A stretch of DNA of 37,764 bases from Alphaproteobacteria bacterium (GTDB lineage Bacteria > Pseudomonadota > Alphaproteobacteria > Micropepsales > Micropepsaceae): contig CANFDA010000005.1 of the NCBI GenBank assembly GCA_947445215.1, positions 1 to 37,764 of the forward strand. The letters are read 5' to 3'. Below, piece after piece: positions 1,428 through 24,225 of the stretch (position 1 is its first letter; each line of letters opens with the position of its first letter). Under the pieces are notes generated by a model that saw nothing but the letters and a program-made list of their open reading frames with translations, did not search any database and was not told where the DNA came from. The translations under genes were made by a program, and so were the position numbers.

Positions 1428-2576
1428 ATGACGATGCCAGATGACGAAACGGGCGTGGTCGCAGAGACCAAGCCTCATGCAGGAACATCGCGACGCCATG
1501 CCCTCGGCGTGATGGGCACCGCGGTCGCCGCTGGCGTGGCGTTGGCCGAGCTTGGGGCACAGGCGCAAACTCCAGCTGTTGCGCCTCTGCGCATTTCGAA
1601 CCCGCCGCCGCTCCTGGTGCCGCGCACGGAACTGGTGATCGTGCCAGAGTATGAAGCGCAGGCGCGTCTCGTGCTGGGACCGGCGCGGGTTGCCCCGATC
1701 CTGGGCAGCGACATGAGCGTGACCAACCGCATCACGCTTCGCCCCCGGATGAATATCAACACGCGCGGTCTGGACCTGACCGCCCCTCTGTTCGGCGATG
1801 ATCATTTCACGCCGATCATGGTCGGCCCGATGGCCGACCAGCGGCGCTTCCATGCCGAGGGCGAAGTCGCCACGGCGCGCGGCGCCTCCGCAGCCAAGGC
1901 CGCGATGGTCGTGAGCAGCGATTCGAGCATGCCGCTGACTGCGATCGCTCAGGCCACTACGGCGCCGCTCTACGTTCAGGTCTATGCGGGCAGCCCCAAG
2001 GTGAAGGACATTCTCGCCCAGGCCAGCACGGTCCGGGCCAAGGCGGTGTTCGTTACGGTGGGCGCAGGCACTTCCGCCGCTGCGCCCGCGACACCGGCCG
2101 GCGCGCCCATCGACTGGGCCGCCATCGAAGCCGTGGTGAAGGGTACGTCTCTGCCTGTGATTGTGAAGGGCATTACCCGCCCGCAGGATGCGCGCGAAGC
2201 CGTTAAGCGCGGCGCCAAGGGCGTGGTGGTGTCGAACTATCGCGGCGGCAGCGCGGCGGGTCTGACGGGCACGCTGCTGTTGGTTGCGCCGGTGGTTCAG
2301 GCGGTTGGCGCCGATGTGCCAGTGCTCGTCGATGGCAGCTTCCGCCTCGGGACGGATGTTCTCAAGGCCCTGGCCTTCGGCGCCAAGGGCGTGCTGATCG
2401 GTCGACCGGCGATGTGGGGCCTTGCGGCCTATGGCGCCGACGGCGTGCAAGGCGTCGTCCAGCGGCTGCAGACCGATCTGGGGCGCTACATGTGCATGTG
2501 CGGTCTTACGTCGCTTACGGCGGTCAATCCCAGTGTGGCGCGCGTTCGCGCGGCCCGTATCGCGGCGAGGAACTGA
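1428..2576 (+). CDS. HAO-family FMN protein A1, catalytic His replaced
   Basis: The product has 382 residues and belongs to the FMN-dependent alpha-hydroxy-acid dehydrogenase family (glycolate oxidase, lactate dehydrogenase). The ATG at 1428 is used; another ATG at 1434 is possible and neither has a strong ribosome site. Residues about 22-45 form a Tat-type signal (TSRRHALGVMG, then a hydrophobic run). The barrel is recognisable: QVY at the flavin strand, the flavin Lys in VIVKGI, and the phosphate-binding region DGSFRLGTD...IGRPAMWGL. The catalytic motif, normally SNHGGR, is SNYRGG here. Tyr271 replaces the catalytic His and the substrate Arg is out of place. The usual TVD is TVG. A YMCMCG motif lies near the C-terminus. 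It therefore probably binds flavin but is unlikely to oxidise hydroxy acids in the usual way. B1 begins two bases after its stop. Confidence 0.85.
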   Translation: MTMPDDETGVVAETKPHAGTSRRHALGVMGTAVAAGVALAELGAQAQTPAVAPLRISNPPPLLVPRTELVIVPEYEAQARLVLGPARVAPILGSDMSVTNRITLRPRMNINTRGLDLTAPLFGDDHFTPIMVGPMADQRRFHAEGEVATARGASAAKAAMVVSSDSSMPLTAIAQATTAPLYVQVYAGSPKVKDILAQASTVRAKAVFVTVGAGTSAAAPATPAGAPIDWAAIEAVVKGTSLPVIVKGITRPQDAREAVKRGAKGVVVSNYRGGSAAGLTGTLLLVAPVVQAVGADVPVLVDGSFRLGTDVLKALAFGAKGVLIGRPAMWGLAAYGADGVQGVVQRLQTDLGRYMCMCGLTSLTAVNPSVARVRAARIAARN

Positions 2577-2578
2577 TC

Positions 2579-3817
2579 ATGGGTGACATTGAACGCGCCT
2601 GGCTTACCAATCCGTCCCGGCGCAAGGCGTTGGCCCGCATGGCAGGTCTTGTGGCGGGCTCTCCCGTCGCCGCGGCCATGGCGCAGATCGACCCGCATCC
2701 GCTGGGCGAGCATCGCCGTGCCTTGAGCCTGGCTGAGATCCAGACGATCTTCGACTTCGAGCCCCTCTTCTTCGGCAATGTCTCCAGGACTATCTACGAC
2801 TATTCGGCGCATGGCGACGGCACGGAGTGGAGCCTGCGGCGCAACCGCCAGGCGTTCGATTGGGTCGATATCATTCCGGGACGCCCCGCCGTTGCCGTAT
2901 CGCAGGTCGACCTCTCGTCGGAGATGCTCGGCCTGAAGATGAAATTCCCCATCGTCATCGCGCCGTCGTCGCTGCAGGTGAACCTGCATCCGGATGGCGA
3001 AATTGGCATGTACCGCGCGGCGACCGCGGCCTCGAACACGATGATGATGCTGAGCGCCAACAATCAGACGCCCGTGACCCAGGTCGCGCCCGCCGTGACC
3101 GGCGGCACCCTCTGGGCGCAGTATTACGCGCATGAGGATTTGGCCACGACCCAGCAATGGGTGAATACCTTTAATAGCGTGGGCTGCGATACCGTCGTTG
3201 TCACCGTCGACCAGCAGGCAGCCTATTATCCGCGCACGCTGCATGACCGGAATTTCGGCGGGCGCGGCGGCCGTGGCGCGGGCGGCCGTGGCGCCGCCGC
3301 AGGCGCTGCGGCAGCGCCCCCGGCGCTGACCGGCGCGGCACGGTACGGGGTCAATGGCCGCATCTGGTACACATGGCAGCATTTCGATGCATTGCGGAAA
3401 ATGGTCAAAGGCCAGCTGCTCATCAAGGGCATCATGGATCCGGAAGACGCTCTGCTGTCGATCCAGCACGGCGCCGATGGCATCGTCGTGTCCAACCATG
3501 GCGGCCGCTCGATGGACTTCGGCCCGTCGTCGCTGGAAGCATTGCCGGAGATCGTGGCCGCCGTGAATGGCCGGGTCCCGATCCTGTTTGACAGCGGCAT
3601 CCGCCGCGGCGCCGACTGCTTCAAGGCACTCGCGCTGGGCGCCAACGCCGTCTGCCTGGGCCGGGCCGCCCGCTGGGGCCTTGCGGCCTTCGGCAGCGCC
3701 GGGGCGCAACGCGCGATGGAAATCCTGCAGCAGGAACTGGTCCAGACCGCGGCCACCGCGGGATGCACCAAACTGTCGGACATCAACAAGACAAAGATCA
3801 GGGCCGACTTCGCTTAG
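2579..3817 (+). CDS. Exported FMN-dependent alpha-hydroxy-acid oxidase B1
   Basis: The product has 412 residues. The ATG at 2579 has GAGGAA in front and lies two bases after the A1 stop, so translation is probably coupled. A Tat-type signal is present (PSRRKALARMAG, then a hydrophobic run ending AMAQ). The catalytic set of the glycolate-oxidase family is complete: YDYSAHGDGTEWSLRRN at the front, QYY, TVD, Lys in LLIKGI, SNHGGRSMD with His307 and Arg310, DSGIRRGAD and LGRAARWGL. In the variable loop after TLHDRN there is an insert of about 30 residues rich in Gly, Arg and Ala; related enzymes carry membrane-binding or mobile segments at this place. It should oxidise a 2-hydroxy acid to a 2-oxo acid in the periplasm. 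The substrate and electron acceptor are unknown. The next gene converges 14 bases away. Confidence 0.88.
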   Translation: MGDIERAWLTNPSRRKALARMAGLVAGSPVAAAMAQIDPHPLGEHRRALSLAEIQTIFDFEPLFFGNVSRTIYDYSAHGDGTEWSLRRNRQAFDWVDIIPGRPAVAVSQVDLSSEMLGLKMKFPIVIAPSSLQVNLHPDGEIGMYRAATAASNTMMMLSANNQTPVTQVAPAVTGGTLWAQYYAHEDLATTQQWVNTFNSVGCDTVVVTVDQQAAYYPRTLHDRNFGGRGGRGAGGRGAAAGAAAAPPALTGAARYGVNGRIWYTWQHFDALRKMVKGQLLIKGIMDPEDALLSIQHGADGIVVSNHGGRSMDFGPSSLEALPEIVAAVNGRVPILFDSGIRRGADCFKALALGANAVCLGRAARWGLAAFGSAGAQRAMEILQQELVQTAATAGCTKLSDINKTKIRADFA

Positions 3818-4570: not shown

Positions 4571-4855
4571 TCAGTCGAATCTGATGCCGTAATGAGGCTG
4601 CGGCACGATCTGGGGAAGGAAATCTGGCTTGACGCCCGCAAGACGGAACACCACTTCGGCGATGGGGGTGATCTGGCCCGGTTCAATGTCGAGCATCACG
4701 AAATGCAGGCGGCCTTGTTCGCGCACATCGGCGTTCAGCGCACCGATGCGCTTGAGCATTAATTGCCATTTCAGATCGAAATCTGGCGCGGACGAGGCCG
4801 TACTTTTCGCTGGAGGGAAGGTGACCCGCATGATCAGTCTCATCGCCTCACCCAT
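4571..4855 (-). CDS. Small protein of unknown function, translationally coupled
   Basis: The product has 94 residues and I recognise no family. The ATG at 4855 overlaps the stop of the upstream oxygenase gene (ATGGGTGA arrangement), typical of real coupled genes, and the stop lies 10 bases before the SDR gene. A second ATG four codons in is possible. The protein has no signal peptide and no membrane segment. It has a central amphipathic stretch (DLKWQLMLKRIGALNADV) followed by short strand-like segments (LHFVMLDI, AEVVFRLAG) and a basic/aromatic C-terminus. Its place between a JmjC oxygenase and a dehydrogenase suggests a part in the same process. Confidence 0.55.
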   Translation of the reverse strand: MGEAMRLIMRVTFPPAKSTASSAPDFDLKWQLMLKRIGALNADVREQGRLHFVMLDIEPGQITPIAEVVFRLAGVKPDFLPQIVPQPHYGIRFD

Positions 4856-5747
4856 CCACGCGTTGGAAAAAGGCGCGCGTGAGCGCTTCGGCTTCAGCCG
4901 GGTCGTCTAGCATCGTGCGCAATTCCGCCAGCAGCTCGGGCAGATAATTGGCTTGCAGCGCGGCGGGATCGCCGCCGGCGCCAAATTTCCCAGCACCAGT
5001 GACAATTGCGCGCCAGCGCGGCGAAGCGGTTAACCGTTCCTGTAGCCCGACGCGCAGCAGATCCAACCACATGGTCGGGGTGTAGGACAGGTTGAGCGAC
5101 CAGCTGGGCTCGCCCGCGCTGGTGTGATGTACCGTGCCGCGCGGTATGTAAAAAAACTTTCCGGGTGTCAGCTCGGCGGTCTCTTCCGGCGGCCGCTGCG
5201 CCTGCGCCAGCAAGGGCGCGAGCGCGGCCGTGATGGCGGGCGACCCCAGCGTGTAGCTGTCGGGCGCGAAGGGTACCATCGGGGCCTGGCCCACCTGCCA
5301 GCGTTTGGCGCCGGTGAGCTGGATGGTGAAATTCTCGTTCTTGTCGAAATGCGGCACGGCCCCGCCCCCGGCAGGCGTGTAAAACAGGCTGGCGATCACC
5401 TGCCGCCGGGGCGCGCCCAGGAAATCCGCAACGGCTTCAGTCAGTGCGGGGAGCGGAACATTAATGAAGTAAAGCGTTGCGCCGGCGGCGTGGAATTTCA
5501 TCGCATTGGTGGCGTCGACCGGAAAGACGCTGTGCGCGACGAAATCATTGGCCAGCCAGGCTTGCGCATCTTCGCGCGCCAGCCCCGCCAGCCGCTCCGG
5601 ATCCAGCGGCCCGATGGTATGGCGGATGAAAGCCAGGTCTTCCTCCGCTAGGGGCATCAGCGCCATGCGCGTCTGCCAATGTTCGGCGAAGAACCGTTCC
5701 ACCCCGATGGGCGCGAGCACGCGGAGCATGTCCAGCCTGTCAGTCAT
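4848..5747 (-). CDS. JmjC/cupin-type Fe(II) 2-oxoglutarate oxygenase
   Basis: The product has 299 residues. The start codon at 5747 overlaps the stop of the preceding 2OG oxygenase gene by four bases (ATGA). The core has the JmjC/cupin arrangement. A first metal motif HFD sits in VPHFDKNENFTIQLTGAKRW, and the second His lies in YIPRGTVHHTSAG, followed by a SWSLNLSY strand. The C-terminal third (LLRVGLQERL to the end) is helical, as in the ribosomal-oxygenase-like group that hydroxylates protein residues. There is no signal peptide, so it should act in the cytoplasm. The substrate is unknown. Genes of this kind are often found beside TonB-dependent receptors, and here the operon is divergent from one. 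Family confidence is high; protein hydroxylation is inferred from relatives. Confidence 0.8.
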   Translation of the reverse strand: MTDRLDMLRVLAPIGVERFFAEHWQTRMALMPLAEEDLAFIRHTIGPLDPERLAGLAREDAQAWLANDFVAHSVFPVDATNAMKFHAAGATLYFINVPLPALTEAVADFLGAPRRQVIASLFYTPAGGGAVPHFDKNENFTIQLTGAKRWQVGQAPMVPFAPDSYTLGSPAITAALAPLLAQAQRPPEETAELTPGKFFYIPRGTVHHTSAGEPSWSLNLSYTPTMWLDLLRVGLQERLTASPRWRAIVTGAGKFGAGGDPAALQANYLPELLAELRTMLDDPAEAEALTRAFFQRVDG

Positions 5748-6337
5748 GAAACAAGCTGCGCGGCGCGGGAATTGAAGGCGATGCTAATCCGGTCTTCCTC
5801 CGACCGACTGATGTTCACGCGATGCAAAATCCAGGAGGGGAAGATCAGCAGGTCGCCGGTCACGGGCGGGATCACCATCGCATGGCCGGTAAAGTTGTTG
5901 AAATTGGCGACGATGTCGTTTGAGATCGTATAGGTGTGCGGCGTGATGGGCGTCTTGAATTCCAGCTCGCCCTTGTCCGGTCCTCCCTTCACATAATAGA
6001 CGGCGGAAAAGAGGCTGCCCGGATGGTCATGCGAATAATTGAAATGCCCCTTTTGGTTGATGTTGATCCAGGCTTCCGTGATCACCTGGCGCATGGCCGG
6101 GTTGAACTCGAAAGCGCGATGCACCTCATCCAGCCTCTTGCGCACTTGCGCGAATAGCTCCGCCAGTTCCGGCGTCGCCAGGTCGATATTGTCGCTCTGC
6201 CAGCCGCCGCCATTGGAGACGACGCGGCCTGTGCTCTGCGCCTTCCTATCCAGGCAGAATTTTTCGATCTTGCCATTGTCGAGGCCCAGCGAATCTACCG
6301 CCAGAAAATTGATGAAGATCGGCATGATATTCATCAT
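5744..6337 (-). CDS. 2OG-Fe(II) oxygenase family protein
   Basis: The product has 197 residues from the ATG at 6337, which has GGAG five bases ahead; the next codon is also ATG (6334) and could be used. The C-terminal half shows the small 2OG-Fe(II) oxygenase fold: EAWININQKGHFNYSHDHPG with the first metal His, SAVYYVKGG, a PVTGDLLIFPSWILHRVN strand with the second His, and the 2-oxoglutarate-binding Arg in EEDRISIAFN. This is the pattern of the family often listed as putative 2OG-Fe(II) oxygenase (Pfam 2OG-FeII_Oxy_5 type). The substrate is unknown. It overlaps the JmjC gene by four bases, so two different Fe(II)/2OG enzymes are made in a coupled way. Confidence 0.8.
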   Translation of the reverse strand: MMNIMPIFINFLAVDSLGLDNGKIEKFCLDRKAQSTGRVVSNGGGWQSDNIDLATPELAELFAQVRKRLDEVHRAFEFNPAMRQVITEAWININQKGHFNYSHDHPGSLFSAVYYVKGGPDKGELEFKTPITPHTYTISNDIVANFNNFTGHAMVIPPVTGDLLIFPSWILHRVNISRSEEDRISIAFNSRAAQLVS

Positions 6338-6431
6338 CAAGTCTCCGGCATGATCCCTGGTGGCGACGCGGTTTTTTCCCGGCGCTGTCGGGCAAGATTG
6401 TAAAAGCGCGGGCCCGGAAGGCAAGGGCGGG

Positions 6432-8744
6432 TTACGTGTCTGCTTCCGCCGTCTCCGGCTTCTGAATCCAGAACACGTACATGCCGCCGAACAGGCCGGG
6501 ATGCTGCGTCTCGAATGCGTCCCAGCAGTCGAGATCGGTGGCCGTGCGGTCCTGCGGGAAGCTCTTCCGGTAGGCGTTCACCACGGTTTCGTTCAGCTCG
6601 AACCCCAGAAAGCGGAGTTTCTCATCTTTCAGGAAGCGCGCGATCTGCAGCAGCGTCAGCTGATGCTCCTGCACATGGAAAAGTAGGTCACGGCAGGCGC
6701 TCAAGGTGAAGAAATCTTGTGACTCCAGGATCGCGCCCTGCAGACGCGGATCGGGGTTCTGCATCAACGCCTGGCGGAAGGCGCGAATGTCGCCGGCGCC
6801 CAGCCCCTGCGCCGCGATGCGGGCGCGTGCTTCCACCACCGACTGGCGCGCTTTTTCGCTGTAGAAAGCCAGGAACATGACGCCGCCCGGCCGCAGCAAC
6901 GGTAGCAGGGCGCGCCATCCAGCCCATGGATCGGCCATGTGATGCAGCACGCCGATGCTTTCGATCATGTCGAATTGTCGTCCCAGGCTCCCCAGCGCGA
7001 GGATGTCGGCCTGGCCATGCGCGATCTTCAGGCCCAGTTCCTCCGACTTGCGCCGGGCATAGCCCAGGCTGGCCAGGCTGAGATCAACCGCCAGCATGTG
7101 CTGGTCGCCGAAACGCTGCGCCATGGCGATGGAGCATTGGCCAGTGCCGCATCCGGCGATCAGGATATCCTGCAGCAGACGCCCAGGTTGTTCGAAGCGT
7201 TGGGGAAATTTGGCGTTTAGGAAATTCGCGATACTGTCCGGCGTTGCCGGTGGCTCCTTCCTCCAGCGAGGGTAGGGATTTTCCTCATACTGGTCCCGCA
7301 CCAGTTGTGAGACGGGGTCGTTGATATCGGTGAGACGGGGAATATCCGCGCGCAGCCTCCCTTCTTCCTGTGGCTCGCGGATTTGCTGGATGAGGACTTG
7401 GGTCACCGCTTCTGGCCAGACCTGCTTCAGCAAGGCGTCCGCATTGGCCATGGTATGCAGCGGGAAATAGGCCGCTACCAGCAAAAGCTGCAGCGGCGTC
7501 ACGGCGATGCCGGCTTCCACTTCGGCGCGCGCCGCCATAGCCGCCTGCATTTCCGCATCATCGGCGAGAAAAACGTATTCATTGATGAAGCATTGCTGCG
7601 CCAGCGCCGAGGCAATCGCTTCCGCCCGCGCGTCACCGTTGCTGTGCGGCAATTCTCGCAACAGGGTGCCGCGCAGCAGGGTGAGAAAACGCTCCAGGGG
7701 AATGTCGCTATTGGGCGCCGAAACCAGCAGGGCCCGCAAAAGGGCATCGTTCGCCAAGGGCGCCAGGCCATCATCGCCCAGCAATTGCGCCAGCGAGAGG
7801 CGCTGCGGGCAAGCCATGTCGGCGCGCTCCACCATCGGGCCAATGGAGGGGTGGGCACGGATCATTCCGGCGGCGACATGGCCCAGCGCGCCGGGCCTAT
7901 CCCAGGCCTCGGTGAGGGCACGGGTCAGGAAAACGCGCATCTCGCCGCCAATGGCGCGCCCGCCCAGCCGCTGCGCCGCCTCAGCAAAGAGTTTTCTCGC
8001 CCGTGGCGTTTCCTGCACGGCCAGAGAGCGGCGGATCGCGGTCATGGCTTCGACGAGCTTGCCTTGCACCAGCAGCAGCGCGGCAAGATTGTCCAGAACC
8101 GTGCTGTCTTGCGGCTGCGCCGCCGAAGCACGGGTATAGAGTGTCTCTGCGGCCTGCAGATCGCCATCTTCCCAACGCATCGCGCCCAGGCTGACCAGTG
8201 CGGCGGCAAATCCCGGCTGCAGCGCGATCGACTTGCGAAAGCTGGCGGCGGCGGCGTCGCGCAGCCCGGCGCTGCGTTGTGCATGACCCAGATTGGTATG
8301 CGTCACGGCATTGCCGGGCTGCAGCGCCAGCGCATGGCGGAAAGCGTCGAGTGCTTCCGCCGCGCGTCCCTGCGCCGACAGCGCGTTGCCCATGTTGTTG
8401 TAGATATTAGGGTCTTTCGGATTCAGCGCCTGGGCGCGGGTGTAACCCGCCACCGCGCCGTCCAGGTCGCCCAGGGCTTGCAAGGCGAAGCCAAGATGGA
8501 AGTGGTATTGTGCGACGTCACTCCGCTGCGCGATGGCTTTGCCGATCAGTTCCAACGCTTCCGCTTGCCGGTTTTGTTGCAGTGCAACCAGGCCCAGCAG
8601 ATGCAGTGCATCGGCATGCGCCGGATCGGACGCCAGCACCTGGCGATAGAGCAGGGCGGCTTGATCCAGCTGCCGCGCCTGATGCAGGCGCACAGCGTCG
8701 TCGAGTAGGCTGCGGCTTTTGCGCGTGTTTTTGGGTGGAACCAT
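6432..8744 (-). CDS. TPR-repeat protein fused to a SAM methyltransferase
   Basis: The product has 770 residues from the ATG at 8744; a TTG at 8808-8810 would add 22 residues and no ribosome site decides between them. Residues about 10-250 are tandem TPR repeats (AALLYRQVLASDPAHADAL, then similar units ending DPKNPNIYNNMG-like). A middle region of about 250 residues is helical without clear motifs. The C-terminal 270 residues form a class I methyltransferase: ILIAGCGTGQCSI is the SAM-binding loop, AVDLSLASL follows, then GQADI, IESIGVLHHM and LRPGGVMFLAFY. TPR units probably hold a protein partner for methylation. It heads the minus-strand run and its start region faces the TonB-dependent receptor gene. 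Confidence 0.82.
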   Translation of the reverse strand: MVPPKNTRKSRSLLDDAVRLHQARQLDQAALLYRQVLASDPAHADALHLLGLVALQQNRQAEALELIGKAIAQRSDVAQYHFHLGFALQALGDLDGAVAGYTRAQALNPKDPNIYNNMGNALSAQGRAAEALDAFRHALALQPGNAVTHTNLGHAQRSAGLRDAAAASFRKSIALQPGFAAALVSLGAMRWEDGDLQAAETLYTRASAAQPQDSTVLDNLAALLLVQGKLVEAMTAIRRSLAVQETPRARKLFAEAAQRLGGRAIGGEMRVFLTRALTEAWDRPGALGHVAAGMIRAHPSIGPMVERADMACPQRLSLAQLLGDDGLAPLANDALLRALLVSAPNSDIPLERFLTLLRGTLLRELPHSNGDARAEAIASALAQQCFINEYVFLADDAEMQAAMAARAEVEAGIAVTPLQLLLVAAYFPLHTMANADALLKQVWPEAVTQVLIQQIREPQEEGRLRADIPRLTDINDPVSQLVRDQYEENPYPRWRKEPPATPDSIANFLNAKFPQRFEQPGRLLQDILIAGCGTGQCSIAMAQRFGDQHMLAVDLSLASLGYARRKSEELGLKIAHGQADILALGSLGRQFDMIESIGVLHHMADPWAGWRALLPLLRPGGVMFLAFYSEKARQSVVEARARIAAQGLGAGDIRAFRQALMQNPDPRLQGAILESQDFFTLSACRDLLFHVQEHQLTLLQIARFLKDEKLRFLGFELNETVVNAYRKSFPQDRTATDLDCWDAFETQHPGLFGGMYVFWIQKPETAEADT

Positions 8745-9046
8745 GTCAGGCGCGATGGTGCATTTCCCGGAAGCGAAGCCAAGGCCAGACAAAATGTTGC
8801 TGAACCCCAATGTGATACGTCAGGCGTGTGAAAAGCGCTGTCGGCATAAAAGCATCAGGTGCGGAAAATTATCTTTATAATTTACGTAAACGGAAACAAT
8901 TTAATTTCAATTGGGCTAAAATTTCCGAGCGGCAGGTTGACTAAATGGAGGAATGAACTTCATTGTCATGAAAAGGACGAAAACGATTAAGTGTCGTTCA
9001 ATCCGTGACTAATAAAAAAAGTACAACTATTCAAAGGGGGAGCGCT
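8745..9046. promoter_or_regulatory. Divergent control region, AT-rich
   Basis: This 302-base gap separates the divergent TPR-methyltransferase and receptor genes. Its middle (about 8860-8920) is clearly AT-rich compared with the surrounding DNA. It contains TATAAT at 8876-8881 and the perfect 10-bp palindrome TTTACGTAAA at 8881-8890. A TTGACT lies at 8937-8942 on the plus strand. No complete -35/-10 pair with proper spacing stands out for either direction, so promoters are likely but not placed. Confidence 0.45.
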
Positions 9047-12000
9047 ATGAATTCTCTTGTTCAAGGTCTGAAGATTAGTTGCTCGTCAGCCGCAATGATT
9101 GCCATGCTGGCTTCGGCCGCCCATGCGCAACAGCTGGCCGTTGAGGAAATCACAGTCAGCACCACGCGTATCGGCGGCGGCTTCGAAGCACCGACCCCGG
9201 TCACGGTGATCGGCACCAAGGAACTGGAAAGCGCTTCTTACGGCAACATCCAGGACTCGGTGCGCCAGCTGCCGATGGTCAACTCCCCCCCGGCGTCGTA
9301 CGGCGCTTCGCAGGGTGCGGGCGCGCCCGGCACTGCCGGCGCGAACTTTCTCAACCTGCGCAATCTCGGCACCAACCGCACCCTGATCCTGTTTGACGGC
9401 CAGCGCGTCGTGAACTCCAACCTCACCGGTGGCGTGGACATCACCACGCTTCCCGCGTCCGTCATTTCCCGCGTCGACATCGTGACCGGCGGCGCTTCTG
9501 CCGCCTGGGGTTCCGACGCCGTGGCCGGTGTCGTCAACTTCATCATTGAAAAGAACTTCAAGGGCTTCAAGGGCAACGTCCAGGCGGGCAGCACCACCAA
9601 CAGCCTGGTTCGCCAGGTCACAGCCAACGCCATGTGGGGCGCGGACTTTGACAGCGGCCGCGGTTCGATCGAAGTCGCCGGCAGCTACAATTACCGTCCC
9701 GACACCGCCATGCTGAGAGAGCAGAAGTGGTTTCGCGGCACCTATCTGGTGTCAAACCCGGGCATCACCGCCACCACCGCCTCCGCCAGCAGTCCCCTAT
9801 ACGTCACGGCCGACCATGTCGGCATAATCAACAGCATACCGGGCGGCATCATCTCGTCCAGCGCCGCCGGCACCGCTGCGCTCCAGCCGGACTCCGCCTT
9901 GCGCGCCCCGGCTAACGCGCTGCAATACATCCGCTTTACCCAGAATAGCCAGTTCGAACGCGTCAACCCAGGCAACGTCACGAACGGCGTTCTAACCAAT
10001 GGCGGCAGCCTGAATGAGGACACGAGCTATGTTCCGCTGCAGACCATCGGCTACCCCACCACGACCTACACTCTGTTCGTCTACGGCAAGTACCAGCTGA
10101 CGGATTCGATCCGGGCTTCGGTGCAGCTCAACTATGGCTATTTCACCGGCAAGGGTGACGCGCAATCCTACCAGCAGAACTCCCTGACGATCAAAGCGGA
10201 CAACGCCTATCTGCCGAGCTCGCTCCTCAAGACCATGACCGACGGTGGCATCGCCACCTTCGTCATGGGCACGATGAACACAAATAATTTCAACAGCAAG
10301 ACCGTCACGGGCCGGGACTATTTCCAGCAGGCCTATAATTCGCTGGCGCCCGCCACGACGTTCAACCGCCGCCAGGTCCGGCGCGCCGCCTTCACCCTGG
10401 AAGGCACGCTGGGCGAGGACTGGTTCTGGAATGTCTATGCCCAGCATTCCGAGACCCGCTATTCGGTTAAAGTGCGCGGCGTGGCGATCCTCGCCAACTT
10501 GGTAGCGGCGCAGGACGCCGTGCTGGTCACGACCGCTAATCGCGGTACGTCAGGCATGCCCTTGGGCAGCATCGTCTGCCGCACGTCGCTGACCGGCGTT
10601 CCGGTGGTACAAGGAAAATACACCGCTCAGCCGGGTTGCATCCCCCTCAACGTGTTCGGCGAGGGCGTCGCCAGCCAGTCCGCCATCCGCTACGTCACCG
10701 ACAACAACAGCAACTTCCAGAAGATGTTTGTCGGCCTGAGCTCGGTCGAAGCCTTCATGGACGGTTCGATCCCTTCACTGCTGGATGCGGGCGACATCTC
10801 CGTGGCCTTTGGCGGCGGCTATCGCCGGGAATCAGGTAACAATAAGGCGACGTCGATCGGTGACTTTGGCGGCTACGCGGTGGCCAATTACACTAACTTC
10901 CCGTCTGCCGGCATCAGCGTGACGGAAGGTTTCGTGGAAGTGGGCGTGCCCCTTCTCAAGGACACGTTCGTGCAGTCGCTGGACTTCAACGCCGCCGGCC
11001 GCGTCACCAACTACTCCACCTCCGGCATGGTTCAGACCTGGAAGCTGGGTCTCACCACCCAGGTTATTGACGACGTCAAGCTCCGGGGCACCTGGTCGGT
11101 CGATATTCGTGCCCCCACAATTCAGGACCTGTTCGCCCCGGCCAACACCAACACCGGCAACTGCATTGACCCCAAGACCAACATCACAGAATCCTGCATC
11201 AACAACGTGCTGGGCAATCCGTTGTTGACGCCTGAGGTTGCCCGCACCGTGTCGGGCGGCGTGGTCTTGACGCCGACCTTCATGCCCGGCTTCACTTTCT
11301 CGCTGGACTACTACTCGATCAACCTGAACGATCAGATCAATCCCATCAGCCAAAACGTGATCTTTAACGCCTGCCGGGCGCAGTGGCTGGCGGCCGGCAA
11401 CCTGAACAATCCGCTCTGTTCGGCGCTGGTCTTCGGCGGCGCGCCTGGTCCTCAGGGCCCCCGCCTCAACGTCACCAACCGCGTGCCGGTAAACCTCAGC
11501 TCGCTGTCCGTCTCCGGCTTCGACATTCAGGCCGGTTATGTCACTGATTTGTGGGGCGGCACCCTGTCGCTGAACGGATCGGGCACCTATACCGACCAGA
11601 TCACGGTGGAACAGGAGGGGCAGGTGACCAATAACTATGCCGGTGTTCTGGGCGTGGGCACCGCGCCGCAGAGCACGGGTTCGCCGAAGTGGCGTGGCCT
11701 GCTCTCGGCCGGCTACACCACCGGACCTTACACCGTCGGCATCCAGGCGCGCTGGTTTGGCTCCGCCATCCTCAACAACCAGTGGAACACGGGTAACCAG
11801 GCCACGGCGGCGACGCGCTGGACGGTGTCTGACGCTGTGTTCCACGTCGATCCGACCGCCTATCTGGACTTGCGCGCTTCGTATCAGTGGAGCGACAACA
11901 TCTCGCTCTATGGGGCTGTCGACAATTTCCTCAACATCCCACCGCAGATGCGCCCGCCGTTCAGCAACAGCGTCCAGTCCAATGGTGGCCCGATCCATTC

Positions 12001-12061
12001 GAGCACCGTGTACGACTATCTGGGACGCGAAGTGCGTATCGGCGTCCGCTTCAACTACTAA
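9047..12061 (+). CDS. TonB-dependent outer-membrane receptor
   Basis: The product has 1004 residues. The ATG at 9047 follows AAGGGGGAG and gives a good signal peptide (basic start, hydrophobic core, AHAQQ cleavage site). A TonB-box-like EEITV stretch comes next, then the plug domain: TPVTVIGTKELES, LNLRNLGTNRTLILFDGQRVV, ISRVDIVTGGASAAWGSDAVAGVVNF. The rest is a large beta barrel ending REVRIGVRFNY with a terminal aromatic residue. There is no N-terminal signalling domain, so it probably does not talk to an anti-sigma factor. It belongs to the long receptors common in Caulobacter- and Sphingomonas-like bacteria that import sugars, peptides or plant compounds. Cysteine pairs in the barrel may form disulfides. 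It is followed by a strong terminator, so it is probably transcribed alone. Confidence 0.93.
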   Translation: MNSLVQGLKISCSSAAMIAMLASAAHAQQLAVEEITVSTTRIGGGFEAPTPVTVIGTKELESASYGNIQDSVRQLPMVNSPPASYGASQGAGAPGTAGANFLNLRNLGTNRTLILFDGQRVVNSNLTGGVDITTLPASVISRVDIVTGGASAAWGSDAVAGVVNFIIEKNFKGFKGNVQAGSTTNSLVRQVTANAMWGADFDSGRGSIEVAGSYNYRPDTAMLREQKWFRGTYLVSNPGITATTASASSPLYVTADHVGIINSIPGGIISSSAAGTAALQPDSALRAPANALQYIRFTQNSQFERVNPGNVTNGVLTNGGSLNEDTSYVPLQTIGYPTTTYTLFVYGKYQLTDSIRASVQLNYGYFTGKGDAQSYQQNSLTIKADNAYLPSSLLKTMTDGGIATFVMGTMNTNNFNSKTVTGRDYFQQAYNSLAPATTFNRRQVRRAAFTLEGTLGEDWFWNVYAQHSETRYSVKVRGVAILANLVAAQDAVLVTTANRGTSGMPLGSIVCRTSLTGVPVVQGKYTAQPGCIPLNVFGEGVASQSAIRYVTDNNSNFQKMFVGLSSVEAFMDGSIPSLLDAGDISVAFGGGYRRESGNNKATSIGDFGGYAVANYTNFPSAGISVTEGFVEVGVPLLKDTFVQSLDFNAAGRVTNYSTSGMVQTWKLGLTTQVIDDVKLRGTWSVDIRAPTIQDLFAPANTNTGNCIDPKTNITESCINNVLGNPLLTPEVARTVSGGVVLTPTFMPGFTFSLDYYSINLNDQINPISQNVIFNACRAQWLAAGNLNNPLCSALVFGGAPGPQGPRLNVTNRVPVNLSSLSVSGFDIQAGYVTDLWGGTLSLNGSGTYTDQITVEQEGQVTNNYAGVLGVGTAPQSTGSPKWRGLLSAGYTTGPYTVGIQARWFGSAILNNQWNTGNQATAATRWTVSDAVFHVDPTAYLDLRASYQWSDNISLYGAVDNFLNIPPQMRPPFSNSVQSNGGPIHSSTVYDYLGREVRIGVRFNY

Positions 12062-12187: not shown

Positions 12188-13600
12188 CTAGCGATCCGCC
12201 GCCGGAAATCTGGCCTCGGTCTTCTGGGTATCCGCAACTTTTAGCGGCATGACGATCACGAACTCCACGCCCGCAGTATCATCGGAGGGATCGCGAATGA
12301 TCACCTGGCCGCCATGCGCATCAGCGATGGCCGCCACCAGGGAAAGTCCCAGTCCGTTGCCCGGCGAAGTGCGGCTGACATCGCGACGATAGAAGCGCTG
12401 CAGCACCTTTGCGCGCTCATGCTGCGGGATGCCGCCGCCATTATCGCGCACCATGATCCGCGCTTCGCCCTGTGCGGCCTGCAAGGCGATGGTGATGGTC
12501 GTTCCCGCCGGCGTATGGGTGATGCTGTTCTCCAACAGGTTGCTCAGGAGCTGGGAGAGCAGGGCGCCATTACCGTTGACGTCGCAGGCCTGCAGTTGCG
12601 CGACCTGAAGTCTGCGGCCGCTATCTTCCACCACAGGGCGGTAGAATTCGATGACCTTTTCCGTCAAGGCGGCGAGATCGAGCCCCGGCAGGCTCTGGGA
12701 GCGCAGTCCGCTCTCGATTTCCGAAAGCCGCAGCACGGCGTCGAACATCTGGAGAATTTCATCGCTGGCGACAATCGTGGATTGCAGTCCCGCCCGCAAT
12801 TCTTCCGGTGTCTTGGCGCTGGCCAGCGCCTTCTCGATGCTCAGACGTAGGTGGACCATCGGCGTGCGCAGATCATGGGCGACATCGCTGCTGACCTGCC
12901 GCAGGCTGATTACCAGGTTAGAGATGCGCGTCAGCATGGCGTTCACGACCTCCGAGAGCCTGTCCAGTTCATCTTTCGATGTGCGCACGGGCACCCGGTC
13001 GTTCAGGTTTCCGTTCATGATGGCCTGGCAGGTTTGGGAAATCGCGTCGATCCGGTTGAGGAAGCGCCGACTGATAAAATAGCCGCCCATCGGGGCGACG
13101 ACCAGAATGCCGCCCAGCAACCAAAGCAGCACATAGAGCATGTGCTTCCGTAGCTGGTCGAAATAGGTCATCTCGGTGCCCACAAAGACATAGACCCCCG
13201 GACCCAGTTCGGCGCCGATGCCCACCACCTCCAATTGCAGCTTGGCGGGATTGCGGATGACCTGCGGGCCGATCAGGGGCGTCATGGCGGGCAAGTTGCC
13301 GACGATCCACTTGCCCTGAACCTGGAGCAAATTATGGGTGGTCGAGCCGGTGCTGGCCTGGTGGCCCACCAGGAAGCGCATGGCGCGGTCGAGGCTGCCG
13401 GGGCCGTTTTCGTCGCCCACGGTGTAGAGGGTGCGCAGGCGAGCGATCGTATTTTCCGACCGATGATAAATGAAATTTTGGAAAGCTTTCTCGGTGGAGG
13501 AGAGGGCCACCATGCCCAGCATGCCGATGAACAGGGCAAAGACGATGCCGAAAATGGCGGGAAGCCAGAAACGTTCCGTGCGGAATAATCTCGGAAGCAT
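12188..13600 (-). CDS. Membrane sensor histidine kinase
   Basis: The product has 470 residues. A membrane segment spans about 12-34, a periplasmic sensor region about 35-153, and a second membrane segment about 154-176. A HAMP linker follows, then the dimerisation domain with His242 in SSDVAHDLRTPMVHLR. The ATPase domain has the N box (LLSNLLENSITHTP), G1 (DNGGGIP) and G2 (GNGLGLSLV). It should phosphorylate an OmpR-type regulator in response to a periplasmic signal. The probable partner is the minus-strand response regulator at 16290-16955. The usual order is regulator then kinase, and here a plus-strand HAO pair lies between the two. The start at 13600 has no strong ribosome site. The periplasmic region resembles no sensor domain I can name. 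Confidence 0.9.
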   Translation of the reverse strand: MLPRLFRTERFWLPAIFGIVFALFIGMLGMVALSSTEKAFQNFIYHRSENTIARLRTLYTVGDENGPGSLDRAMRFLVGHQASTGSTTHNLLQVQGKWIVGNLPAMTPLIGPQVIRNPAKLQLEVVGIGAELGPGVYVFVGTEMTYFDQLRKHMLYVLLWLLGGILVVAPMGGYFISRRFLNRIDAISQTCQAIMNGNLNDRVPVRTSKDELDRLSEVVNAMLTRISNLVISLRQVSSDVAHDLRTPMVHLRLSIEKALASAKTPEELRAGLQSTIVASDEILQMFDAVLRLSEIESGLRSQSLPGLDLAALTEKVIEFYRPVVEDSGRRLQVAQLQACDVNGNGALLSQLLSNLLENSITHTPAGTTITIALQAAQGEARIMVRDNGGGIPQHERAKVLQRFYRRDVSRTSPGNGLGLSLVAAIADAHGGQVIIRDPSDDTAGVEFVIVMPLKVADTQKTEARFPAADR

Positions 13601-14956: not shown

Positions 14957-16207
14957 ATGGGTGATATCGAGCGCTCCTGGCTCACCAATCCGTCGCGTCG
15001 CGCGGCAATTGCCCGTGTGGCGGGTCTCATGGCGGCCTCGCCCATCGCTTCAGCTGCGGCACAGATCGACCCTAGGCCTATGGGTGAGCATCGCCGCGCC
15101 TTGAGCCTGGCGGAAATGCAGTCGGCGTTCGACTTTGAGCCGCTGTTTTTCGGCAATGTGTCGCAGTCGGTGTACGACTACACGGGGCATGCCGACGGTT
15201 CGGAGTGGACCCTCCGCCGCAATCGCCAGGCGTTCGGATGGGTCGATATCCTGGCTGCCCGTAATCCCGTTCCGGCGTCGCAGGTCGATCTGTCATCGAC
15301 CATCCTGGGGTACAATTCGAAATTCCCGATCTGGATGGCGCCGACGGCGCAGATGGTGGCTCTGAATCCGGATGGCGAGATGGGCATGTTCCGGGCGTGC
15401 ACGGCCGCCTCGAACACGCTGATGATCCTGAGCGCCAACACCGGTACGCAGGTCGAGCAGGTTGCGCCAGCCTCGCCAGGCGGCACGCTGTGGGCGCAAT
15501 ACTACCCGCAGGAGAACCTGACCACCACCCAGGCATCGATCGACCGGCTGCAGAATGCCGGTTGCCAAAGCATCACCGTCACCATCGACCAGACGGCGTC
15601 CTACTACGAGCGCACACTGCAGGACCGCAATCTGGGCGGTCGCGGTGGCCGTGGTGCTGCCCCGGGCGGCCGTGGTGGTGCGGCTGCCGGACCTGCGCCC
15701 GCACCAGCGGCGCTCACCGGCGCGGCGCGGTACCGCATCGGCGCTGGACGCATCTGGTACACATGGCAATATATCGACGCCGTGCGGAAAATGGTCAAAG
15801 GTCCCATGATCATCAAGGGCATTGACCAGCCGGAAGACGCCTTGCTGGCGATCCAGCATGGTGCGGACTCGATCGTCGTTTCCAATCACGGCGGGCGTTC
15901 CATGGACTATGGTGCGTCGACGCTGGAAAACCTGCCTGCGATCGTGGCGGCGGTGAATGGCAAGGTTCCGATCCTGTTCGACAGCGGCATCCGCCGCGGC
16001 TCCGACATCTTCAAGGCGCTCGCGCTGGGGGCCAATGGCGTTTGTCTCGGGCGCGCCGCGCGCTGGGGCCTTGCGGCTTTCGGCCAGGCCGGCGCCCAGC
16101 GCATCATCGAGATGCTGCAGCAGGAACTGGTCCAGACGGCCGCCGCAGCCGGTTGCGCCAAGCTATCGGACATCAACCGCAGCAAAATCAAGGTCAATTT
16201 CGTCTGA
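14957..16207 (+). CDS. Exported FMN-dependent alpha-hydroxy-acid oxidase B2
   Basis: The product has 416 residues and is a close relative of B1. The ATG at 14957 follows GAGGA and gives the same MGDIER start as B1, then a Tat-type motif (PSRRAAIARVAG). All catalytic positions are intact: YDYTGHADGSEWTLRRN, QYY, TID, Lys in MIIKGI, SNHGGRSMD with His311, DSGIRRGSD and LGRAARWGL. The variable loop holds a Gly/Arg/Pro-rich insert (GGRGGRGAAPGGRGG) that differs in detail from the one in B1. The gene ends with a strong terminator. It should be a periplasmic 2-hydroxy-acid oxidase or dehydrogenase that works with A2. The substrate may differ from that of B1. Confidence 0.88.
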   Translation: MGDIERSWLTNPSRRAAIARVAGLMAASPIASAAAQIDPRPMGEHRRALSLAEMQSAFDFEPLFFGNVSQSVYDYTGHADGSEWTLRRNRQAFGWVDILAARNPVPASQVDLSSTILGYNSKFPIWMAPTAQMVALNPDGEMGMFRACTAASNTLMILSANTGTQVEQVAPASPGGTLWAQYYPQENLTTTQASIDRLQNAGCQSITVTIDQTASYYERTLQDRNLGGRGGRGAAPGGRGGAAAGPAPAPAALTGAARYRIGAGRIWYTWQYIDAVRKMVKGPMIIKGIDQPEDALLAIQHGADSIVVSNHGGRSMDYGASTLENLPAIVAAVNGKVPILFDSGIRRGSDIFKALALGANGVCLGRAARWGLAAFGQAGAQRIIEMLQQELVQTAAAAGCAKLSDINRSKIKVNFV

Positions 16208-16289: not shown

Positions 16290-16955
16290 TCACTCATTTA
16301 AAATATAGCCCGAACCTCGAATGGTGCGGATCAGTTCGTTGCGGCTTTTGCAGCCGATCTTGCTGCGCAGGCGGCTGATATGGGTCTCGACCAGATTGGT
16401 TCTGGGCATGAATGTTAAGTTCCAGACATTCTCCAGCAGCATCGCACGCGTCACCACCCGGCCGGCATTGAGCATCAGATATTCCATCAGATGGAATTCC
16501 TGGTGCTGAAGTTCGATCAGCCGTCCGTCGCGCTTCAGCGTGTGGCGGACCAGATCCATTTCCAGACTGCCAACCATGAGCGTGGAAGGCCGCATGGTGC
16601 TGCGGCGGGTGATGGCATTCAGCCGGGCGATCAGCTCCGTCGCCGCAAAGGGCTTGGTCAGATAATCGTCGGCGCCGCCTTCCAGTCCCTGCACGCGATC
16701 GGCGATCGAAACCATGGTAGTGAGAAACAGGATCGGGGTTTGCAGGCCTTCCTGGCGCAGCGAGCGCACGACGCTGAGCCCGTCCTTGCCCGGCAGCATG
16801 CGGTCCACGATCAGCGCTTCATGCCCGCCCTTGCGGGCCCGGGCTTCGCCGTCGGGGCCGGTATAACTTTCCTCCACCTCATAGCCGTTGGAGCGCAGAT
16901 GAAAGGAGATGTGCTCGGCTGTTTGCCGGTCATCCTCTATGAGCAAGACTTTCAT
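16290..16955 (-). CDS. OmpR-family response regulator
   Basis: The product has 221 residues from the ATG at 16955; in-frame ATGs at 16961, 16970 and 16973 are alternatives, and GGGG nine bases before 16955 favours the short form. The receiver domain has the acidic pair in IEDD, the phosphate-accepting Asp51 in VDRMLPGKDG, Thr in LFLTTM and Lys in LTKPF. The C-terminal half is a winged helix of OmpR type (LMEYLMLNAGRVVTRAMLLENVW, ETHISRLRSKI, IRTIRGSGYIL). It should bind DNA after phosphorylation. Its probable kinase is 2.7 kb away on the same strand, beyond HAO pair 2. It is divergent from the NHL propeller gene at 17197, so it could control that gene, the HAO pair, or both. Confidence 0.93.
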   Translation of the reverse strand: MKVLLIEDDRQTAEHISFHLRSNGYEVEESYTGPDGEARARKGGHEALIVDRMLPGKDGLSVVRSLRQEGLQTPILFLTTMVSIADRVQGLEGGADDYLTKPFAATELIARLNAITRRSTMRPSTLMVGSLEMDLVRHTLKRDGRLIELQHQEFHLMEYLMLNAGRVVTRAMLLENVWNLTFMPRTNLVETHISRLRSKIGCKSRNELIRTIRGSGYILNE

Positions 16956-17137
16956 CGTCATAGGCCCCATCACGTTACGTCACGATGATGGACGGACATT
17001 GGCGGCAGTCAATGCGAGGATGAAATCAGGGCCAAAATTGCTGCCCAGGAAGGTTTTCTGGGCCCATGGCCTAGATTTCTGGTCATCACACCCGGGCGTA
17101 TAACATTGGCTAGCACCAAGATTGCTTTCCGGCGGAT

Positions 17138-19268: not shown

Positions 19269-20285
19269 TCAGCGCGGGTAGCCTTTAAAGGTCCATTCCA
19301 GCGATTCCGGTAGGGTTTGCGTGATCGCCCGGTTATCGCAATGGCCAGTGTTGCGCGAGAAGACGTAGCGATAATCATAGCTCTTGGCCTTCAACGCTGC
19401 CGCCATGCGCTGGTTGGCCATGGGCCAATTGTGCCAGCTCTTCTCTGGATCGGTGGCGTGATTGTCATTCTCGCTGACATGCATCCAGATGCGGATCGGC
19501 TTTTTGGCCGCATTGGGGATCAGTTTGGCGTGATACTCCCAGGCGCCGCGAGGCGTCTGGGGATTTTCCGGCGAAGCCTGATTTACGAAGGTGCCGGAGT
19601 AACTCAGCACACGGCTGAACCATTCGGGATGATACCAGGCCGCCGTCCAGGCCGCCGCCGCACCGCTGCTGCAGCCGCCGATGGCGCGGCCTTCGCGGTC
19701 GTTGGTGAAGGTGATGTTGCCTTCGCGTGCGGCGCGGGGCAGCACTTCGGTCTGGATGAATTCGGCATAGCGGCCGTCCAGCGTGTCATATTCCAGGCCG
19801 CGCTGGGAATTCTGCGCATCGCTGCCGCCGGAATTGACGAAAAGCACCGCGATGGCGGGAATTTTCTTCTGCGCGATCAGGCTGTCCAGCACAGGCGCCA
19901 TGCGCGAGACGTAACCGACGCCATCCTGGAACACCAGGAACGGCAAGGTGGGCGGCGGCGCGCCGGGTCTACGTGTGAGGCCCGGCGGCACATAGAGCAC
20001 AACCTTGCGCGCGTAAGCCTGCGCGCGTGAATTGCCTTCCAGCGGCGCCGCCATGCGGTTGCCCCACGGGTCGCGGCGCGCCATCGTTTCATTATCGATG
20101 CGCGCGATGCCGGGATAGATCTTGCTGTCGGCCGACTCCATGGTGAAAGGCACCAGCGCACCCCGGGGAGTTCCCATTTCCTGCGCATAGTCCGGCCCGA
20201 TGGTGGCCTCCGACTGGTCCGGGACCTGGGCCAACAGCGGCGTCGCCGCCAGCAGAAGGGCCGAAATGACGGCAAGTCTTTTCAT
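19269..20285 (-). CDS. Exported esterase of the enterochelin-esterase-like family, copy 1
   Basis: The product has 338 residues. The ATG at 20285 follows GGGAGAGAG and gives a signal peptide (MKRLAVISALLLAATPLLAQ). The alpha/beta-hydrolase domain has the nucleophile elbow GGCSSGAAAA (Ser in G-C-S-S-G) and a likely catalytic His in NTGHCDNRA; the acid may lie in VSENDNH. The oxyanion strand is FLVFQDGVGYV. It resembles the Fes/IroE and esterase D group (Pfam putative esterase), which cleaves esters of siderophores, feruloyl sugars or similar. A second copy lies at 31447-32598 with the same IGPDY and DSKIYPG opening motifs. It is divergent from the DUF1592 gene, with a palindrome between the two. 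The substrate is unknown. Confidence 0.82.
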   Translation of the reverse strand: MKRLAVISALLLAATPLLAQVPDQSEATIGPDYAQEMGTPRGALVPFTMESADSKIYPGIARIDNETMARRDPWGNRMAAPLEGNSRAQAYARKVVLYVPPGLTRRPGAPPPTLPFLVFQDGVGYVSRMAPVLDSLIAQKKIPAIAVLFVNSGGSDAQNSQRGLEYDTLDGRYAEFIQTEVLPRAAREGNITFTNDREGRAIGGCSSGAAAAWTAAWYHPEWFSRVLSYSGTFVNQASPENPQTPRGAWEYHAKLIPNAAKKPIRIWMHVSENDNHATDPEKSWHNWPMANQRMAAALKAKSYDYRYVFSRNTGHCDNRAITQTLPESLEWTFKGYPR

Positions 20286-20399
20286 GACGCTCTCTCCCAA
20301 AAGTCGTTTCACAAAGCTGCCGTTCGCGGCATTTTCGTTTCGCGGTCGCAACAAGCGTCTGCAACTATCGCGTTGTTTTCCATGGATAGGCCGCGGATA

Positions 20400-20412
20400 C
20401 TTGTCTGACAAG
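20400..20412. promoter_or_regulatory. Palindrome CTTGTC-T-GACAAG, possible operator
   Basis: A perfect 13-bp palindrome lies in the gap between the divergent esterase (start 20285) and the DUF1592 gene (start 20482). TTGTC-N-GACAA resembles operators of GntR-type regulators, which is a family-level comparison only. TTGTC and GACAA half-sites also occur upstream of the second esterase (31378-31382 and 31406-31410). Confidence 0.35.
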
Positions 20413-20481
20413 GAGGCGGGACTCGCCTCAGAACGACAAGCGCTGGCGGACGGGAAGCCGACCGGCACGAGGAAACGTAAC

Positions 20482-22893: not shown

Positions 22894-24218
22894 TGATCAC
22901 GCGCAAGCCGCTCGCCCGCCGCACGCTGCTTCGGGGGCTTGGCGTCAGTCTGGCGCTACCGCTGCTGGAAGGAATGAGCGTCTCGGTGAAGGCGGCCGAG
23001 GCCACTGCCGCGACGCGCAAGCGCCTGGCGGTGCTTTACCTGCCCAACGGCATGATCATGCAAAACTGGACGCCGGCAGAGCTGGGCGAAAACTATGCGA
23101 TGTCGCCGATCCTGAAGCCCATGACGCCGTTCCGCGACAAGTTCGTGACGATCAAGGGCCTGGACCATGTGATGGCCGAGGCGATGGGCGACGGCGCCGG
23201 CGATCATGCCCGCTGCTGCGCCACCTTCCTGACTGGCGTGCATATCTACAAGAGCGACGCGGTTCTGCTGAATGGTCCGTCGATGGACCAGATCGTGGCG
23301 AAGAAGTTCGGGCAGCAGACCCAGATCGCCTCGCTGGAACTGGGCCTGGATCAGCCGAGCATGGTGGGGTCCTGCGACAGCGGTTACAGCTGCGCCTACA
23401 ACAACACCCTGTCCTGGACCGGCCCGAAAACGCCGCTGCCGATCACGGTCAATCCGCGCGAGGTCTTCGAGCGCCTGTTCGGCGACGGTGACCTGGCCGA
23501 CGCCGCCACCCGCCGCCGCCAGTTTCTGCGCCAGGCCAGTCTGCTGGATTTCGTGGCGCAGGATGCTAAGCGCTTCGCCACGAATCTGGGCGCGGGCGAC
23601 AAACAGAAGCTGGACGAATACATGACGGCGGTGCGCGATGTGGAGCGCCGCATTCAGATGGCGGAAACGCAGAATGTGGTGGCGCTACCCAAGATGGCGC
23701 GGCCATCCGGCATCCCGGAAAGCTATTCCGCCTATGCCCGGATGATGATCGACCTGCAGGTGCTGGCGATGCAGGCCGACCTCACCCGCGTCACTACCTT
23801 CATGCTGGGCCGCGAATCCGGCGCCCGCTCTTATCCGGAAGCCGGCGTGGCCGATGGCCACCATCCGCTCAGTCATCATGTCAACAACGCGCAGAAGATG
23901 GCCGACCTGACCAAGATCAACACCTATCACATGGAGCAGGTGGCCTATTACTTCCAGCGCATGAGCGAGACGATGGACGGCCAGTCCAGCCTGCTGGACA
24001 CCAGCCTGGTGCTGGCGGGCGCTTCGCTGGCCGACCCCAACCGGCATGAGCATCGCAATCTGCCCATCCTGCTGGGCGGCGGCTTGGTGCAGGGCAACCG
24101 CCACATCGACGCCAAGCAGATTCCGATGTCCAACCTGATGCTCACCATGATGGACCGGCTGGGCGTCGAGGAAGCGAAATTGGGCGACAGCACCGGCCGC
24201 ATGGCCGGTCTGGTCTGA
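22890..24218 (+). CDS. DUF1552 Tat-exported protein
   Basis: The product has 442 residues and overlaps the DUF1592 gene by four bases. The start MMITRKPLARRTLLRGLGVSL carries a twin-Arg motif (ARRTLLRG) and a hydrophobic run. The body matches the DUF1552 family, with motifs such as LYLPNGMIMQNWTP, GDHARCCATFLTGV, the Cys pair in GSCDSGYSCAYN and DGHHPLSHHVNN. The His/Asp-rich segments and a fold related to alkaline-phosphatase/sulfatase-like proteins suggest a metal-binding hydrolase, but this is not proven. DUF1592 and DUF1552 proteins are usually encoded side by side and probably act together outside the cytoplasm. The ankyrin gene follows after seven bases. Confidence 0.88.
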   Translation: MMITRKPLARRTLLRGLGVSLALPLLEGMSVSVKAAEATAATRKRLAVLYLPNGMIMQNWTPAELGENYAMSPILKPMTPFRDKFVTIKGLDHVMAEAMGDGAGDHARCCATFLTGVHIYKSDAVLLNGPSMDQIVAKKFGQQTQIASLELGLDQPSMVGSCDSGYSCAYNNTLSWTGPKTPLPITVNPREVFERLFGDGDLADAATRRRQFLRQASLLDFVAQDAKRFATNLGAGDKQKLDEYMTAVRDVERRIQMAETQNVVALPKMARPSGIPESYSAYARMMIDLQVLAMQADLTRVTTFMLGRESGARSYPEAGVADGHHPLSHHVNNAQKMADLTKINTYHMEQVAYYFQRMSETMDGQSSLLDTSLVLAGASLADPNRHEHRNLPILLGGGLVQGNRHIDAKQIPMSNLMLTMMDRLGVEEAKLGDSTGRMAGLV

Positions 24219-24225
24219 GGCTGCG

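Follow-up and report, generated by a model that had tools for sequence, protein, structure and literature searches.

A coupled gene pair in a genus of uncultured alphaproteobacteria combines a catalytic-type FMN_dh protein with a paralogue that appears to have lost the substrate site

The stretch of DNA analysed here, which we refer to as the window, spans 37,764 nucleotides and carries two copies of a two-gene unit encoding proteins that we designate A and B. The genes of both pairs and the context genes beside the second pair are the following:

1428 to 2576, forward strand: A1, FMN_dh paralogue apparently without a substrate site (pseudo-oxidase), with a Tat-like signal, the motif SNYRGG and a short loop 4
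2574 to 2581, forward strand: junction of the A1 stop and the B1 start (TGA TC ATG), a point at which stop and start overlap by 8 bases in the other loci
2579 to 3817, forward strand: B1, catalytic-type FMN_dh protein with a Tat-like signal, the motif SNHGGR and a Gly/Arg/Ala-rich loop 4
9005 to 12061, forward strand: TonB-dependent receptor, a context gene also present at the A-B locus of genome G006 (L027)
12188 to 13600, reverse strand: sensor histidine kinase adjoining pair 2, and also adjoining the pair in L027
13833 to 14954, forward strand: A2, second A copy, 75% identical to A1, with a probable GTG start at 13833
14957 to 16207, forward strand: B2, second B copy, 73% identical to B1, two bases past A2
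16290 to 16973, reverse strand: response regulator adjoining pair 2

A1 reads from an ATG at 1428 to a TGA ending at 2576 (382 aa) and B1 from an ATG at 2579 to 3817 (412 aa), leaving between stop and start the two bases of spacing given in the initial annotation of this DNA. The kinship with glycolate and lactate oxidases proposed there is borne out by Pfam and PDB searches, both of which return family matches for A and B. Against a curated cut-off of 24.9 bits, the Pfam FMN_dh family PF01070 scores 220.7 bits on A1 (E-value 3.7e-65), 314.1 on B1 (1.4e-93), 225.3 on A2 and 306.7 on B2, and sequence identity between A and B is only about 30%. A reading of A1 and B1 as the pre-mycofactocin synthase MftD was rejected, their scores of 129.8 and 176.4 bits comparing with a curated score of 470.85 for NCBIfam TIGR03966. 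The motifs previously reported for the two proteins, TVG...SNYRGG in A1 and TVD...SNHGGR in B1, were read correctly, and the twin-arginine-like start described for both is also present: each carries an S-R-R motif and a hydrophobic stretch, with S21, R22 and R23 invariant in 8/8 aligned A sequences and R14 and R15 in 8/8 aligned B sequences, as judged by eye. These starts suggest that A and B are exported through the Tat route. Near the C-terminus of A1, the motif R-Y-M-C-M-C (2484-2501, residues 353-358) is invariant in the eight aligned A sequences, and its Cys-x-Cys might be redox- or metal-related.

To place the residues of the active site, A, B, a sister group of B (B') and other paralogues were aligned with spinach glycolate oxidase (GOX), which provides the reference numbering. 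The catalytic His of A1 had been described as replaced by Tyr, with the Arg displaced and TVD turned into TVG, and the alignment agrees on every point: GOX His254 aligns with Tyr, Gly255 with Arg, Arg257 with Gly and Asp157 with Gly. As read from the alignment, the defect is wider than this substitution of His by Tyr, taking in the Tyr24 segment, Arg164 and most of loop 4 as well. Among the 14 full-length A sequences, position 254 is Tyr in 13 and Trp in one, the Asp157 position is Gly or Asn and the Arg257 position is Gly in every case; a nine-residue segment around Tyr24 is absent from 14/14, and so is Arg164. Only 24-34 residues separate positions 157 and 230 in A, compared with 72 in GOX and 65-109 in B and B', so that loop 4, the active-site lid, appears to have all but disappeared. 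The 25 catalytic-type sequences have 39 invariant columns in common, of which columns 24, 157, 254 and 257 are all altered in A; from the roles of the GOX residues, we take these four to represent the catalytic base pair and carboxylate binding. This signature is not a chance occurrence, since 13 further full-length A genes of the genus, among them A2, show it. A replacement His in the active site had been named beforehand as an observation that would speak against a non-catalytic A, and none was found in the alignment: the only invariant His residues across eight aligned A sequences are H126 and H142 (A1 numbering), at GOX positions 69 and 85, and position 255, mostly Arg in A, is His in a single A (L028). 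The site is otherwise conserved, with an aromatic residue at 254, Gly257, Ser287, Asp or Glu at 108 and invariant Tyr129 and Lys230. When 24 FMN_dh proteins were screened, seven conserved residues were all present in 12/14 active proteins, and one or more of them was missing from 8/10 inactive proteins (PMC8491902). By our count, A keeps two of these seven (Tyr129 and Lys230). The earlier proposal that A is a non-catalytic partner is upheld with respect to the hydroxy-acid reaction, for which A apparently fails every known criterion.

The flavin-phosphate motifs, which the initial annotation had described as remaining in A, are indeed kept, and the FMN-contact columns are unchanged. All 12 of these columns (GOX positions 77, 106, 127, 155, 230, 252, 253, 285, 286, 289, 308 and 309) are invariant and identical to GOX in the 14 A sequences, against a background of 60/246 columns (hypergeometric p 1.8e-8). 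The columns were chosen, and individual residues assigned their roles, on the basis of what is generally known of spinach GOX. Partial support for both is available in the literature (PMC10153336, PMC7020226, PMC8491902). Gly287 of GOX is Ser in all A, and the conserved contacts suggest that A binds FMN. The tabulated contacts of B are kept except for a change of Gly286 to Ser, as in lactate oxidase, and position 106 of B' is mostly Ala instead of Ser. In the structure predicted for A1 by AlphaFold (mean pLDDT 62.5, with the barrel mostly above 70 and the first 109 residues at low confidence), residues 108-376 match human HAO1 (6w44) with a Z of 28.7 and an rmsd of 3.0 over 254 residues, and the model matches spinach GOX (1gox) with a Z of 27.1; the predicted fold of A1 is a (beta/alpha)8 barrel like that of GOX and HAO1. 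The B1 model is poorer (mean pLDDT 57.9), and the family fold of B was judged from its sequence.

The description of B as the intact member of the pair stands in part. B1 has SNHGGR, and the six catalytic residues Tyr24, Tyr129, Asp157, Lys230, His254 and Arg257 are kept in 12/12 B and 6/6 B' sequences, but Arg is missing from aligned position 164, which holds Glu, Pro or Gln in B and B' with an Arg one residue later, in a loop 4 of uncertain alignment. Because of this missing Arg, we consider B to be probably, but not certainly, a working oxidase or dehydrogenase. Loop 4 of B (B1; L028:9661-10989) is a Gly/Arg/Ala-rich stretch of low complexity and very variable, with 65-109 residues across B and B'.

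A profile of A detects the gene in 14/69 genomes of the genus and, outside it, returns nothing in 385 genomes of the class (E 1e-75) or in 398 genomes of the phylum (E 1e-55). Beyond Pseudomonadota, the search covered plasmids and a near-identity scan of contigs. No plasmid record has a single stretch spanning 80% of A1, and the best of the longer plasmid matches (Acidisarcina) was rejected as an A, being a lone gene for an ordinary oxidase without a partner; the contig scan returned one true relative, L017, from the same genus. As far as sampled, the A-B pair is thus limited to one genus of uncultured alphaproteobacteria. The B profile likewise finds B-type genes in 14/69 genomes of the genus, and the mismatches between genomes with A and genomes with B (G017, G435 and G444) are explained by contig ends, although the B-type match of G435 is a distant solo gene on a separate contig.

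A total of 16 A genes was found, of which two (G017 and G435) stop no more than 200 bases short of a contig end and 14 have downstream sequence. The initial annotation had proposed searching genomes for whether A always sits beside a B-type gene and had named A genes commonly standing alone as evidence against the pair. In 14/14 informative loci a B or B' gene comes next on the same strand, and solitary A genes were not seen among the loci of the 69 genomes of the genus. The A stop and the B start overlap by exactly 8 bases in 12/14 loci, a layout typical of translational coupling, and both pairs of the window have a 2-base gap. The B' sister group, about 57-62% identical to B1, occurs at L067:7893-11547, L069:6672-9111, L070:5990-8474, L073:8107-9438, L074:8059-9733 and L075:3-2532. 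It lies directly behind A as its partner twice (L069 and L070), behind an A that a contig end truncates once (L074), behind B once (L067) and without A once (G008:C32, L073), while in G444 B' and B stand at a contig start and are uninformative for pairing. These placements, the lone B' of L073 among them, indicate that A depends on B more than B depends on A, and B-type proteins may work alone. Solo FMN_dh proteins of other alphaproteobacterial loci (L076:4613-5854, L078, L080 and L082) are 32-37% identical to B1 and have no A. Three of them (L076, L078 and L080) resemble B1 in their twin-arginine-like start and SNHGGR motif, but differ from the pair in having no A-type gene beside them; in the tree, the L076 protein groups with B at modest support, on a long branch.

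Comparison of the two pairs of the window by blastn yields an alignment of 1485-3787 only, with 75.6% identity over 2328 columns. Since the DNA similarity between the copies is restricted to A and B, the pair was duplicated as one unit. In the A part and the B part of the tree alike, pair 2 of the window groups with the pair of L027, and pair 1 stands next to them. The host assembly (1.9 Mb, 86% complete) encodes two ordinary single FMN_dh-family members elsewhere. Both partners evolve under strong purifying selection, with median pairwise dN/dS values of 0.14 for A, 0.19 for B and 0.13 for B', and the constraint on A, the putatively inactive partner, is no looser than that on B. In the tree, the A sequences cluster together (support 100/100) on a stem as long as 1.52 changes per column, and B and B' jointly make up a second cluster. 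Distances within A and B are correlated (mirror-tree Pearson 0.69, Mantel p 0.0016, 11 pairs), a correlation that also follows from shared inheritance and is for that reason weak evidence of contact between A and B.

The genomic surroundings are shared among the loci in part. The pair of G006 (L027) is flanked by homologues of the receptor and the kinase found in the window. In three loci (L025:12665-15086, L026:6209-8684 and L072:6326-8747) the genes downstream of B encode an MFS-type transporter and an FMN_dh protein that has no signal and is fully canonical, an arrangement that suggests a cytoplasmic counterpart of the exported pair. A short-chain dehydrogenase also lies downstream in L025 and L072, and an enolase-superfamily protein, a dicarboxylate symporter, a D-2-hydroxy-acid dehydrogenase and an HpcH/HpaI aldolase are found nearby in L025. 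Such neighbours, which are not universal, point to 2-hydroxy or sugar acids as the substrate class. Elsewhere in the window, JmjC_2/cupin-like, TIGR02466-family and TPR proteins are encoded at 4848-8810 beside the TonB receptor, and the combination of TIGR02466, TPR and TonB genes is seen again in L027. A three-gene unit at 20200-25521 encodes a DUF1592-family protein with a cytochrome domain, a DUF1552 protein and an ankyrin-like protein, and also occurs, arranged differently, near the pair in L026:13298-17998.

We propose that A and B make up a periplasmic FMN-dependent 2-hydroxy-acid dehydrogenase or oxidase, whether as its subunits or at the least as partners obligately linked in function, with B as the catalytic member and A as a stabilising or activating pseudoenzyme, an explanation for which we hold belief and doubt in equal measure. 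In this enzyme, B would bind the substrate and oxidise it through the usual His/Asp/Arg/Tyr chemistry, and A, a barrel of the same family, would hold FMN for structural reasons and, devoid of the carboxylate-binding residues, the catalytic base and the lid, would stabilise or activate B in a mixed oligomer. Judged at the sequence level, A exhibits what characterises the dead member of a paralogue pair, namely the loss of its catalytic residues, purifying selection and a constant position beside a catalytic-type copy. A putative hetero-oligomer of A and B is the likeliest reading of these data. Adjacency, coupling and similarity of the trees also fit two enzymes of one pathway that are inherited together, and the presence of a separate Tat-like signal on each protein neither demands nor excludes a complex. 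Some pre-assembled Tat complexes carry the signal on one partner only (PMC10924467).

The FMN-dependent alpha-hydroxy-acid oxidases and dehydrogenases (1GOX, HAO1, lactate oxidase and mandelate dehydrogenase) share PF01070 and the FMN contacts with the pair, and A differs from them in lacking His254, Asp157, Arg257, Tyr24, Arg164 and most of loop 4. To our knowledge, the members of this family known so far are single-gene homo-oligomers. Glycolate oxidase, for instance, is a tetramer (PMC10153336). The statement in the initial annotation that hetero-oligomers are unknown in the family needs correction, because rice GLO1 and GLO4 subunits form them, GLO5 being catalytically inactive (PMC5549332). 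In contrast to A and B, GLO1 and GLO4 each have activity, can assemble into homo-oligomers too and do not constitute an obligate pair, and GLO5 is no obligate partner; the rice proteins are, moreover, plant isozymes encoded by separate genes, whereas A and B form a coupled and apparently exported pair. A functional parallel is offered by the AdoMet decarboxylase of trypanosomes, where a dead paralogue termed prozyme is needed for activity (PMC5201418). As with A and B, a dead paralogue is kept there beside an active enzyme, but fold and cofactor are different, and activation is proven in that system and only proposed here. The ERb and ERc components of thraustochytrid PUFA synthase are two paralogous FMN-binding TIM barrels that form a heterodimer (PMC13311796); unlike A and B, they are enoyl reductase domains within megasynthases and both keep the catalytic His. 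By analogy with these FMN barrels and with rice GLO, a mixed A-B oligomer is plausible. A literature search, with most subscription papers outside its reach, returned no paper on a hydroxy-acid oxidase pair with a dead subunit, and a dedicated two-protein enzyme of this kind looks to be undescribed for the family.

The main rival to the pseudoenzyme reading is that A is a separate flavoenzyme whose exposed FMN performs a different reaction in the same pathway, such as reduction of the keto-acid product of B or another redox step, with coupling to B serving co-production alone. Tyr129, Lys230 and all FMN contacts are invariant in A, the altered site is itself conserved beyond what a mere scaffold seems to need, and each protein has its own Tat-like signal, all of which this explanation accommodates well; no known FMN_dh member, however, works without the residues that A has lost, and exact coupling to B together with duplication as a unit favours a fixed stoichiometry. 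We regard it as somewhat unlikely, yet as a serious contender. It is improbable, in our estimate, that the pair constitutes a two-flavin, two-subunit enzyme in which a lid-less, substrate-blind A does redox work, either relaying electrons from B to an acceptor in the periplasm or catalysing a new reaction on the product of B. Specifically as an electron-transfer subunit, A would take electrons through its FMN from the FMN of B and deliver them to a periplasmic acceptor (cytochrome c or quinone), and retention of the FMN site with removal of the lid would open the flavin to a protein partner. Flavins of neighbouring subunits nevertheless lie ~45 A apart in glycolate oxidase tetramers, too far for direct transfer (PMC10153336), and the A-B loci surveyed show no consistent linkage of a cytochrome gene to the pair, which makes this role distinctly improbable. 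We consider it very unlikely that A, devoid of FMN, acts as a folding or export chaperone or as a pure scaffold for B: the loss of the entire substrate apparatus and the replacement of Gly287 by Ser in all A would suit such a function, but 12/12 FMN-contact columns are unchanged (p 1.8e-8 relative to random columns). Decay of A as a duplicate on its way to becoming a pseudogene, which the loss of several catalytic residues might have suggested, is refuted by a dN/dS of 0.14, intact reading frames, the same losses in 14 copies and the retention of A at every locus, and we give it practically no credence.

The hydroxy-acid oxidase family serves as a textbook model of flavin enzyme mechanism and is viewed as a collection of stand-alone homo-oligomers. 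If A is indeed a pseudoenzyme subunit of B, it would amount to a natural experiment in which FMN binding is uncoupled from catalysis, and would show in bacteria how a pseudoenzyme evolved into an obligate subunit; the database label 'alpha-hydroxy-acid oxidase' would be wrong on function for A-type proteins.
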